Assembly (NCBI GenBank): GCA_947168965.1
Contig: CAMVNW010000004.1
Location: 1 to 50,357 of the forward strand
Direction: 5' to 3'
DNA length: 50,357 nt
Origin: an uncultured Caryophanales bacterium
GTDB lineage: Bacteria; Bacillota_I; Bacilli_A; RF39; UBA660
A program made the translations under genes and the position numbers. The notes beneath the pieces were generated by a model that was not told where the DNA came from, searched no databases, and saw nothing but the letters and a program-made list of their open reading frames with translations. The stretch's first letter is position 1, and every line of letters begins with the position of its first letter. Shown here piece after piece: positions 42,042 through 45,975 of the stretch.

Positions 42042-42752
42042 ATGATTAATTTTATTGTTGTTGATGATATTAAGAAGTTTTCTGATATTATCTGTCAGGT
42101 TATTACAAAACTTATGATGAAGAATAAGTTTATTTATAAAACTCATGTTTTTGATGAATATGATTCTAGTTTTAATTCTATTATGAAGTCTGATTTACCT
42201 AATAAGATTTATATAATGGATATAGAAACTAAAAATTCATCAGGTATAGATGTTGCGAGAAAGATTAGAAAGTTTGATGTTGATAGTATTATTATTTTTG
42301 TTACTGTTCATAATGAAGCAGGTATGGTATTGCTTCAGGATGATTTAATGTTTTTAACTTTCTTATCTAAATTTGATGATTTTGAGAATAAGCTTTATAA
42401 TTCATTAAGTAAGGCTTTGGAATATATTCATCATAAAGTATCTATTAAATTTAATGATAGGGGTACAATTTATACTATTCCTTTGAATGATATTTTATAT
42501 GTTACAAAAGAATCTAATTCAAGAAGAAGTATTATTAAGACTAGTTATACTCAATATAGTGTTAGCTTAACTTTACGTGATGTACTTGAATTATGTGATA
42601 ATTGTTTGGTTCAAACTCATAGAAGTTGTTTTGTTAATATGAGTAGAGTAAGGGTAATTGATAAACATAATAATATTATTGAATTTGATGATGGTAGTAC
42701 TATTGATTTGTTGTCTTCTAATTATAAGAAGGGATTGGTATTAAGTGATTAA
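42042..42752 (+). CDS. agrA: AgrA-like LytTR-family response regulator
   Basis: Receiver (VVDDIKK, IMDIETKNSSGID) plus LytTR domain (RSIIKTSYTQYSVSLTLRDVLE..FVQTHRSCFVNMSRV-like); start moved to ATG 42042 after RBS aaggtgag. Confidence 0.88.
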   Translation: MINFIVVDDIKKFSDIICQVITKLMMKNKFIYKTHVFDEYDSSFNSIMKSDLPNKIYIMDIETKNSSGIDVARKIRKFDVDSIIIFVTVHNEAGMVLLQDDLMFLTFLSKFDDFENKLYNSLSKALEYIHHKVSIKFNDRGTIYTIPLNDILYVTKESNSRRSIIKTSYTQYSVSLTLRDVLELCDNCLVQTHRSCFVNMSRVRVIDKHNNIIEFDDGSTIDLLSSNYKKGLVLSD

Positions 42753-44055
42753 AACTTTTAATTGTATTTCTTTTTTAGTTTTATGTTTTGCTCAGATTTT
42801 TAGTTGGTCTCAATTTTATAAAGAGAAAATCAATTTTAAAAACATTATTTTTTATCTTTCGTTATTAGTTATGTTTTTTCTTGGCTTTTTAACTTATTTT
42901 TATACAAGTGCTTATGTCAGAATGATTCTTGACATGTTGTTGTTTTGCTTATGTAATTTTCTTATTTTTAGAAAAAAGCTTAATGAGGTTATAGTAAGTA
43001 CTATTTATAGTCATTTTTTACTTACTATTTCTGATGTATTGTGTGCTTTACTTGTTATGTGTTTTTTTAGAGTAAGTGCTTCAGAAATAAGTGATGATGT
43101 GTTCTTTACTTCTTGCGGTAATCTCTTGACTTCTTTTGTTTTCATATTTTTCTGTAGCAGATCATTTATAGTAATGTTTTATACTAAATTATTAAATTTA
43201 ACTTCAAAAATAAAATTTAAATATTTATTTTTAATTTGTTTATTTGTAATGCTTTGTATAAATTTTTTGATGGCTACTATTTATTATAGATTGAATTCAA
43301 TTCTTATTATTTTGATTAATTCTTTTTTAGTGGTTATTTATTCATATATTATATATAGAAGTTTAAATGAGAGAAATAATAGTATTCTTATAAAAGCTGA
43401 GAATGATTCTTTAATGGAGAGTCTTCATCAATATGAAGATATGGTTGATCGTCAGAGAGTTGATAATCATGAGAATAAGAATCAATTATTAATTATTAAA
43501 AATATGATTAAGAAGAATGATAAGGATGTTGTTAAGTATATTGAGACTATTGTTAAGGATCAAATGGAAGATGATGAGTCTTTATATACTAGGGTAATGA
43601 CTATTCCTTCTGGTGGTTTACAGGGTATTATTTATCAGAAAATGTTGGTTATGAAGGATGAAAATATTTTATTTAGTTTGGATGTTAGTCGTGATGTACG
43701 TAAGATTGATCTTGAAGATTTAGGCATGGAAGATAATTATAGATTGTGTAAGATTGTTGGTGTTTTACTTGATAATGCGATTGAAGAAAGTAGAAATATT
43801 GATGATAAACGTATAATGATATGTTTATATGTAGATGATAATAAACTAGTTATTGATATATCTAATAGATTTAATGGGAATATTGATTTTGAAAGATTGG
43901 ATGAAGAAGGCTATACTACTAAGGGTGATGGTCATGGATATGGCTTATCGTTAGTTAAAAAGATATTATCTGAAACTGATATTTTTGAGAATGAAAGAAG
44001 CGTTAAAAAAGATGTATTTAAACAAATTGTTAAGGTTAAAATAAAAAATACTTAG
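42745..44055 (+). CDS. agrC: AgrC-like sensor histidine kinase (GHKL, HPK10)
   Basis: Polytopic N-terminus; H-box RVDNHENKNQLLIIKNMI; LCKIVGVLLDNAIEES; GDGHGYGLSLVKKI. Confidence 0.88.
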   Translation: MIKTFNCISFLVLCFAQIFSWSQFYKEKINFKNIIFYLSLLVMFFLGFLTYFYTSAYVRMILDMLLFCLCNFLIFRKKLNEVIVSTIYSHFLLTISDVLCALLVMCFFRVSASEISDDVFFTSCGNLLTSFVFIFFCSRSFIVMFYTKLLNLTSKIKFKYLFLICLFVMLCINFLMATIYYRLNSILIILINSFLVVIYSYIIYRSLNERNNSILIKAENDSLMESLHQYEDMVDRQRVDNHENKNQLLIIKNMIKKNDKDVVKYIETIVKDQMEDDESLYTRVMTIPSGGLQGIIYQKMLVMKDENILFSLDVSRDVRKIDLEDLGMEDNYRLCKIVGVLLDNAIEESRNIDDKRIMICLYVDDNKLVIDISNRFNGNIDFERLDEEGYTTKGDGHGYGLSLVKKILSETDIFENERSVKKDVFKQIVKVKIKNT

Positions 44056-44076
44056 AAAATTTCTAAGTATTTTTTT
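44043..44076. terminator. Bidirectional terminator between the convergent agrAC and agrBD operons
   Basis: AAAAAATACTTAGAAA / TTTCTAAGTATTTTTT, overlapping the agrC stop. Confidence 0.85.
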
Positions 44077-44078
44077 AT

Positions 44079-44198
44079 TTATTTGATTAAGCTTTCTGGG
44101 CATTCTGGTTCGTCAAACATTACAAACATACAAGCTTTTGAACTTGTGTCAGCTAGAGCTCCACCAATGTTAGATAAAATATTAGCTAAGAATTCCAT
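44079..44198 (-). CDS. agrD: AgrD-like autoinducing peptide precursor (39 aa), absent from the ORF track
   Basis: Reverse strand ATG 44198, RBS aggagg (44205-44210); MEFLANILSNIGGALADTSSKACMFVMFDEPECPESLIK*. Confidence 0.92.
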   Translation of the reverse strand: MEFLANILSNIGGALADTSSKACMFVMFDEPECPESLIK

Positions 44199-44230
44199 AT
44201 TATACCTCCTTTTTATTCTCTATGTTTAAA

Positions 44231-44845
44231 TTAATAATTTAAACCATGTGTTTTAATGTATGTCTTATAGTTGTTATAAGGCATTTTAAATAATTTATAT
44301 GTAATTGGTGATATTAATATATTTTGTAGTATTGTTGCATAGAAGAAGCAATTTGATATGAAATTATCTTTTATTATTATTGAAAGTAGTATATATGTTG
44401 ATGCGATAATTGTTGAGAGTATTTTATAAATTCTTCTTCTTTTTTTATTTATTATAGGTTTTTTATGTGTATCTGCTGGTGAAAAAAGTGCGATACCTAT
44501 TATTGATAATAACCCTATTATTAGTTTTGTTGTTATATTTAGTTTTATGTATATTGCGATAAGTGGTATTCCTATGAATGACATTGTAGATGTTAGTAAG
44601 CATATCCAACTTTTTTTAGCGTGTATTCCAAATGATGGTGTTCTCATAATTGAGTAAATTATCATAAATATTAAATATTCTTTTGTAATTTTTAATATTA
44701 TGGCTATTGTTGTAATTACTATTAATTTGGTAATCATTAAGTATAATCCTTCTAGCCCATATTTTATTTCTGCAAGTTTTGTTTCATCTAGTTGTTTGTT
44801 TTGTTTAATTATTTCCATACATTTATCCAATACAAACTTCTTCAT
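44231..44845 (-). CDS. agrB: AgrB-like accessory gene regulator peptidase
   Basis: Polytopic; FGIHAKKSWIC keeps the His-x6-Cys spacing of the AgrB active site; SPADTHKKPI motif. Confidence 0.93.
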   Translation of the reverse strand: MKKFVLDKCMEIIKQNKQLDETKLAEIKYGLEGLYLMITKLIVITTIAIILKITKEYLIFMIIYSIMRTPSFGIHAKKSWICLLTSTMSFIGIPLIAIYIKLNITTKLIIGLLSIIGIALFSPADTHKKPIINKKRRRIYKILSTIIASTYILLSIIIKDNFISNCFFYATILQNILISPITYKLFKMPYNNYKTYIKTHGLNY

Positions 44846-45023
44846 ATTTTTACCTCTTGATGCAAGTATAATTCTATTTTTTTTAATATTTTTTTATTTG
44901 TCGTTTAAGGTTATTTGAAGAGTTTTAATTATTGTTTTTTAATTTTATGTTAATTATTTTTATGTTTTGTGTATTATTCTTTTTTGTTTATGCTTTTAAT
45001 TTTTTTTGTGTATTTTACGCATA

Positions 45024-45149
45024 GTATAATGGTAATGTTGCACGGTAAAAAATATGTCGAATTTTGATGATTCGTTTTTATTGAATTTATTGTGTTAAAT
45101 GATGTATATTTTTAATGTAAGCGATTTTACTAGAAGGGAGATTTTTGAT
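45024..45149 (+). promoter_or_regulatory. Promoter -10 and long 5' UTR of csp
   Basis: TATAAT near 45024 and about 115 nt before the csp RBS; local CGAAT/ATTCG hairpin. Confidence 0.4.
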
Positions 45150-45362
45150 ATGAAAGGTAAAGTAAAATGGTTCAATAATGATAAGGGTTTTGGTTTCATT
45201 GAATATAAGGAGGGTGAAGATATTTTTGTTCATTATTCTTCAATATTGTCTAGTGGTTATAAGACTTTAGTTGAAGGACAATATGTTGAATTTGAACTTG
45301 TTAGAACTGATAAAGGTCTTCAAGCTAAAAATGTTGTTGAAATTAAAACTGCTTTGGTGTAG
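45150..45362 (+). CDS. csp: Cold-shock protein
   Basis: MKGKVKWFNNDKGFGFIEYKEGEDIFVHYSSI; start moved to ATG 45150. Confidence 0.97.
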   Translation: MKGKVKWFNNDKGFGFIEYKEGEDIFVHYSSILSSGYKTLVEGQYVEFELVRTDKGLQAKNVVEIKTALV

Positions 45363-45453
45363 TAGTTTTTTTTTTGATATTTTTGTGAATTTTTTTTCTT
45401 TTATGGACTTTACTTGTTTTATAATGGTATAATAATATTGGGAGGATGATATT

Positions 45454-45975
45454 ATGAAATTTAATATCCATGGAAAGAATATAGAGGTTACTGACGCAAT
45501 TAAGGGTTATGTTGAATCTAAGATTGGAAGAATTGAAAAGTATTTTAAGGATACTGATTTAACTGCTACTATTAATCTTAGAGTTCGTGGCAAGGAACAA
45601 ATTGTTGAGGTCACTATTCCTGCAAGTAAGATGGTTTTAAGGGCTGAGGAAAAGAATGTTGATTTATATGCAGCTATTGATTTGGTTTCTGATAAATTGG
45701 AAAGACAAATTCGTAAGAATAAAACTAAGGCTCGTAAGAATTTAAAACAAACTATTGTGTTTAATGATTTTGATGTTGATGCATCAGAGGACGTTGATGA
45801 TACAATTGTTAAGAGAAAAGTCATTGATACTAAACCTATGAGTGAGGAAGAAGCAATTTTACAAATGGAGTTAATTGGTCATGATTTCTTCTTATTTAAA
45901 AATGATAAAACTGGCGCTTTTTGTGTCGTTTATAAGAGAAAAGATACTGGTTATGGTATTTTAGAGGCAAAATAA
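45454..45975 (+). CDS. hpf: Ribosome hibernation-promoting factor, long form
   Basis: MKFNIHGKNIEVTDAIKGYVESKIGRIEKYF; C-terminal VIDTKPMSEEEAILQMELIGHDFFLF. Confidence 0.95.
   Translation: MKFNIHGKNIEVTDAIKGYVESKIGRIEKYFKDTDLTATINLRVRGKEQIVEVTIPASKMVLRAEEKNVDLYAAIDLVSDKLERQIRKNKTKARKNLKQTIVFNDFDVDASEDVDDTIVKRKVIDTKPMSEEEAILQMELIGHDFFLFKNDKTGAFCVVYKRKDTGYGILEAK

Follow-up and report, generated by a model that had tools for sequence, protein, structure and literature searches.

The AIPs of Staphylococcus aureus are five-residue rings (sequences listed in PMC12312760) that carry an exocyclic tail. Its agr genes form a single agrBDCA operon, with RNAIII on the divergent side, and AgrA direct repeats at the divergent P2 and P3 promoters are centred near -60 (PMC4227749). 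Listeria monocytogenes also has a single agrBDCA operon and a Cys-led, hydrophobic five-residue ring ([CFMFV]), for which recent work supports a tail-less form (PMC11297923). Cys thiolactones that lack a tail are capable of an S-to-N shift, which rearranges them to a homodetic peptide (PMC11297923). In Clostridium acetobutylicum, the AIP [CVLVTL] has a six-residue ring (PMC12312760) and agrBD and agrCA lie in separate operons (PMC12312760, PMC10301443). A synthetic peptide used in that species was named R6T0 (PMC10301443), a name that we take to stand for a ring of 6 and a tail of 0. Ser-lactone AIPs are found in Staphylococcus pseudintermedius and Enterococcus faecalis (PMC12312760), providing a precedent for Ser in place of Cys.

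Here, we describe an agr locus in the window, that is, the whole stretch of 50,357 nucleotides analysed. The source genome, a Bacilli MAG of 1.08 Mb from an uncultured gut-type bacterium, encodes a single AgrB and a single LytTR regulator. The locus shares with S. aureus its AgrD layout, the His/Cys pair of AgrB, and a DExxxP tail; with L. monocytogenes a Cys-led hydrophobic ring; and with C. acetobutylicum a predicted six-residue ring and the separation of agrBD from the receptor genes. Unlike C. acetobutylicum, the window belongs to the class Bacilli, its agrBD genes converge with a unit that has agrA ahead of agrC, a cold-shock gene (csp) is divergent, and no lanthipeptide-synthetase-like neighbour is seen. 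The peptide is of an already known agr type, albeit with a predicted ring of the less common six-residue size, and the locus departs from known systems in its arrangement and its probable output. Nothing relevant to agr in RF39-type Bacilli was found in the literature searched, which included few subscription papers.

Features of the agr locus in the window (positions count from the first nucleotide of the window)
Feature	Position	Strand	Remarks
agrA-like LytTR response regulator	42042..42752	+	LytTR 6.4e-13, Response_reg 2.2e-6
agrC-like histidine kinase	42745..44055	+	HATPase_c_5 4.1e-13
Hairpin between convergent agrD and agrC ends	44043..44075	.	-14 kcal/mol, z -6.2
agrD, 39 aa, MEFLANILSNIGGALADTSSKACMFVMFDEPECPESLIK	44079..44198	-	TIGR04223 and PF05931 above curated cut-offs
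AgrD C-terminal recognition tail DEPECPESLIK	44082..44114	-	D/E/P/x/x/P conserved
Predicted AIP ring Cys23-Met-Phe-Val-Met-Phe28	44115..44132	-	Nucleophile at -6 in family
AgrD leader, residues 1-22, amphipathic, Ser-Lys-Ala end before Cys	44133..44198	-	Hydrophobic moment
AGGAGG ribosome-binding site of agrD	44205..44210	-	From sequence; few bases 5' of ATG
agrB, 204 aa, His75 and Cys82 catalytic pair	44231..44845	-	PF04647 118.5 bits
agrB -10 element TATACT	44865..44870	-	154 bp from divergent csp -10
Degenerate LytTR-type direct repeat AGCATAAACA-N11-TACACAAAAC	44964..44994	-	Position as family operator
Divergent csp -10 element TATAAT	45025..45030	+	154-bp spacing to agrB -10
TGTCGAA, matches Spo0A box, csp leader	45055..45061	+	Only occurrence in window
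Cold-shock protein gene (csp), divergent from agrB	45150..45362	+	

We consider it likely that the locus encodes a complete agr quorum-sensing system in which AgrB makes a six-residue CMFVMF thiolactone. AgrB, through His75 and Cys82, would cut AgrD just before Asp29, and the acyl group would then move from the AgrB Cys to Cys23 of AgrD, closing the ring. A second protease, which could be signal peptidase I or any of the three membrane proteases of the MroQ family, would cut after Ala22 to release a ring without a tail. Outside the cell, the ring would be detected by AgrC, which would in turn phosphorylate AgrA.

An earlier sequence-only reading of this stretch had proposed an unannotated AgrD, at coordinates and with a translation that we recover exactly. 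The AgrD profile search it called for supports the AgrD assignment: the ORF scores 30.5 bits against TIGR04223 (NCBIfam AgrD; cut-off 19) and 25.5 bits against PF05931 (Pfam; cut-off 22.7), and is the sole AgrD match genome-wide. It lies immediately 3' of agrB on the same strand, as in relatives. Its reading frame is intact in same-genus relatives, where changes fall mostly at the third codon position (counts over the three positions: L003, 10/3/17; L004, 9/7/17) and those in the tail are almost all synonymous (0/0/3 and 1/0/4, respectively). These scores, the strong ribosome-binding site, and the conserved frame indicate that the ORF is a genuine agrD and not a chance frame.

To place the ring, we assembled 129 distinct AgrD peptides, of which nearly all come from the window's GTDB family, together with a control set from other families in its class. 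The control set numbers 14 distinct AgrDs, four of them (L157, L161, L163, and L164) read by eye from sequence. Peptides were aligned on the tail, [D]-E-P-x-x-P, and positions were counted from the tail Asp. In the family set, the nucleophile lies at -6 in 120 of 129 AgrDs (106 Cys, 8 Thr, and 6 Ser, with Thr and Ser counted only where no other core Cys was at hand); the remainder have Cys at -5 (3), -7 (5), or -9 (1). By comparison, the nucleophile lies at -5 in all 14 control AgrDs. The window AgrD follows its family, with Cys at -6 and CMFVMF running directly into DEP, and does not have the five-residue spacing. The ends of the S. aureus AIPs (PMC12312760; tail sequence from the earlier reading) fall where this anchor predicts, and the same rule gives CMFVMF here. 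Our best prediction from these alignments is therefore a tail-less six-residue thiolactone, CMFVMF (computed [M+H]+ 759.303), rather than CMFVM (612.234).

The ring favoured by the sequence-only reading was CMFVM, which the same agr system would produce if AgrB cut between Met27 and Phe28. Rings of five residues are much more common than any other size (PMC10301443), three family members do have Cys at -5, and a fixed distance between Cys and Asp would, by itself, also be compatible with a cut one residue earlier. However, known systems cleave at the first residue of the conserved tail, and the residue before the tail Asp is not conserved as the tail is. Instead, it is variable and hydrophobic like the ring interior, where the five columns after the nucleophile are hydrophobic and hypervariable (Ser, Thr, and Cys together at 2-6% in each column). 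The consistency of -5 in other families also speaks against CMFVM here. We consequently think CMFVM improbable and prefer CMFVMF, which the earlier reading had offered as its alternative. In five relatives (L009, L020, L029, L031, and L066), the AgrD Cys lies seven residues before the tail, which suggests seven-residue rings.

On either side of the ring, the layout of leader, core, and tail proposed earlier is supported by an amphipathic leader (hydrophobic moment 0.39, shuffle p 0.007), Cys23, and the DEPECP tail. In most relatives, the nucleophile is directly preceded by Ala or Gly, with Ser or Thr a further two residues back, a pattern that would fit a signal-peptidase-like cut leaving no exocyclic tail. 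In the genome, a single signal peptidase I scores above cut-off, and there are three Rce1-like proteins, members of the family to which S. aureus MroQ belongs. Tail conservation is strong among the 129 AgrDs (D in 119, E in 126, P in 114, and the second P in 115). At position +4, where the window has Cys, 48 AgrDs also have Cys, 49 have Met, and 18 have Ala. Thus, the second Cys, which had been flagged as unusual, is an ordinary feature of the window's family. Overall, the earlier interpretation holds for the identity and layout of AgrD and for the AgrB pair, but not for the five-residue ring or the oddity of the second Cys.

Some relatives depart from Cys altogether. Eight AgrDs (L022, L026, L039, L084, L098, L107, L116, and L136) have Thr exactly at the nucleophile position and no core Cys, predicting threonine-lactone signals, and six (L016, L067, L075, L126, L130, and L148) have Ser. 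These six are comparable to the Ser-lactone AIPs of S. pseudintermedius and E. faecalis, from which the window AgrD differs in having Cys. For Thr-lactone AIPs, we found nothing relevant in the literature searched, in which few subscription papers were covered. An AgrB tree built by a quick method has long branches, and support is weak at many of its forks. Over all rows of this tree, parsimony requires about five changes for Thr. Several origins of the Thr nucleophile are likely rather than proven, since the starred branches force only two Thr changes among the non-standard rows. The tail Cys is present in seven of the eight Thr-type AgrDs, which may reflect shared ancestry. In L161, an AgrD from another family of the class, the nucleophile of the five-residue core appears to be Thr (TWGGL, followed by YQP).

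The region between agrB and csp shows a recurrent architecture across the family. Upstream of agrB, we find a TGYnTnAAAT direct repeat with a period of exactly 21 bp. It is present in 61 of 122 loci, where about 3.7 would be expected; other periods give counts of 0-16. The count of 61 is somewhat optimistic because motif and threshold were refined on the same 122 sequences; positions were not fitted, and the sharp 21-bp peak was visible before any motif was defined. Where both operator orientations are present, the repeat starts are 64-66 bp apart (12 of 12 loci). A TATAAT-like box lies 29-30 bp outside the operators, with 35 matches among 51 loci for csp and 18 among 21 for agrB, and divergent -10 boxes are separated by the modal family distance of 154 bp in 26 loci, against 0.6 expected. 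Clear inverted 21-bp operators with a symmetric pair of divergent promoters are found in L050, L061, and L089, among others. From the -10 spacing, the operator centre would lie near -57, not far from the value of about -60 reported for AgrA at S. aureus P2 and P3 (PMC4227749).

In these relatives, the arrangement resembles the divergent S. aureus promoters with their AgrA-type direct repeats (PMC4227749). Across the wider family, AgrA probably binds the two inverted 21-bp direct-repeat operators and would activate agrBD in one direction and the cold-shock gene in the opposite one. The 154-bp geometry is retained in the window and L003, whose repeats are weak. The window repeat, although positioned like the family operator, scores only 1.8 bits (p 0.019), so AgrA control is less certain in the window's genus than across the family. 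Divergent csp itself lies within 900 nt in 63 of the 75 loci with enough upstream sequence. An Rfam scan of 43900-45500 returned no RNA, and thus no RNAIII relative is evident there. An operator search of 22 genomes returned mostly agr sites and scattered single matches, with none in the window's genome, and we therefore claim no regulon.

The sequence TTCGACA (TGTCGAA on the csp strand), which matches the Spo0A box, occurs in 41 of 122 upstream regions (2.1 expected), and Spo0A is itself encoded in the window's genome (137 bits). It is plausible that agr may be connected with the control of sporulation. In L026 and L151, TGTCGAA is in tandem with a 10-bp period.

The remaining genes are also recognizable. 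The His and Cys of AgrB, at the spacing noted earlier (HAKKSWIC), are invariant in 126 of 126 AgrBs, and AgrB is present in 80 of the 118 genomes of the window's GTDB family. An AgrC-type GHKL kinase and a LytTR regulator are linked to agrBD. The kinase has a hydrophobic N-terminal half and an H-box, NHENKNQ, with His242. The regulator, whose ORF opens at TTG 41997 and likely starts at ATG 42042, is the only LytTR protein in the genome. Among the points that count against a complete agr system making CMFVMF are the degenerate operator of the window and AgrC and AgrA scores far below the staphylococcal equivalog cut-offs (55.5 bits against NF046015, AgrC, with a cut-off of 500; 24.7 bits for the regulator, with a cut-off of 400). 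By these scores, the two proteins are related to AgrC and AgrA but are not the staphylococcal equivalogs.

It could be argued that the AgrBD peptide acts on something other than the neighbouring AgrC-AgrA, for example as an antimicrobial or an interspecies signal, and that the pair is an unrelated two-component system. The separate, convergent units would allow this, as would the existence of Clostridium agrBD loci without agrCA (PMC12312760). Nonetheless, the convergent pair remains linked across the family, the kinase matches AgrC models, the LytTR regulator is unique in its genome, and relatives carry LytTR-type operators upstream of agrB. We therefore regard another target as very unlikely and favour signalling of the peptide through the adjacent pair. 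A decayed or chance ORF beside agrB, which its shortness and the degenerate operator in the window's genus might suggest, is rejected because the HMM matches, ribosome-binding site, third-position bias, and conserved tail already contradict it.

With this locus, a predicted signal of exact mass becomes available for uncultured Bacilli with small genomes. The approximately 130 AgrDs also form a natural series that varies in ring size (5, 6, and 7) and nucleophile (Cys, Ser, and Thr) while the catalytic residues of AgrB are invariant, so that what AgrB measures during cleavage could be tested directly. Most worth pursuing are the replacements by Thr seen in relatives and the promoter that faces csp. 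A repeated swap of Cys for Thr would give threonine-lactone signals with six-residue rings, and if the divergent promoter is AgrA-driven, the second output of agr would be a cold-shock gene of RNA-chaperone type and not a regulatory RNA. That both hold in this small-genome lineage, with a P3-like promoter driving csp in place of RNAIII and repeated replacement of Cys by Thr in AgrD, is a tentative proposal that may well prove wrong.

The layout of the locus is widely retained. The closely related genomes are Bacilli MAGs, of which one carries the label goat colon and another goat jejunum. In nearly all loci with enough sequence, agrBD converges with agrC, and with agrA too where the contig is long enough, and most relatives examined retain csp-hpf-secA, in that order, beyond agrB. 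The hairpin between the convergent ends is probably a bidirectional terminator common to both units. A consensus terminator scan found no terminator, probably owing to the A/T-rich stem, and a consensus promoter scan was uninformative. In L080 and L094, two AgrD-like genes lie near each other within one locus. L017 is an exception to the shared layout, with its kinase upstream of agrB, a very divergent AgrB, and an AgrD with a C. perfringens-like five-residue core (CMWAS before YQPEEP), together suggesting a separate, possibly horizontal, acquisition.
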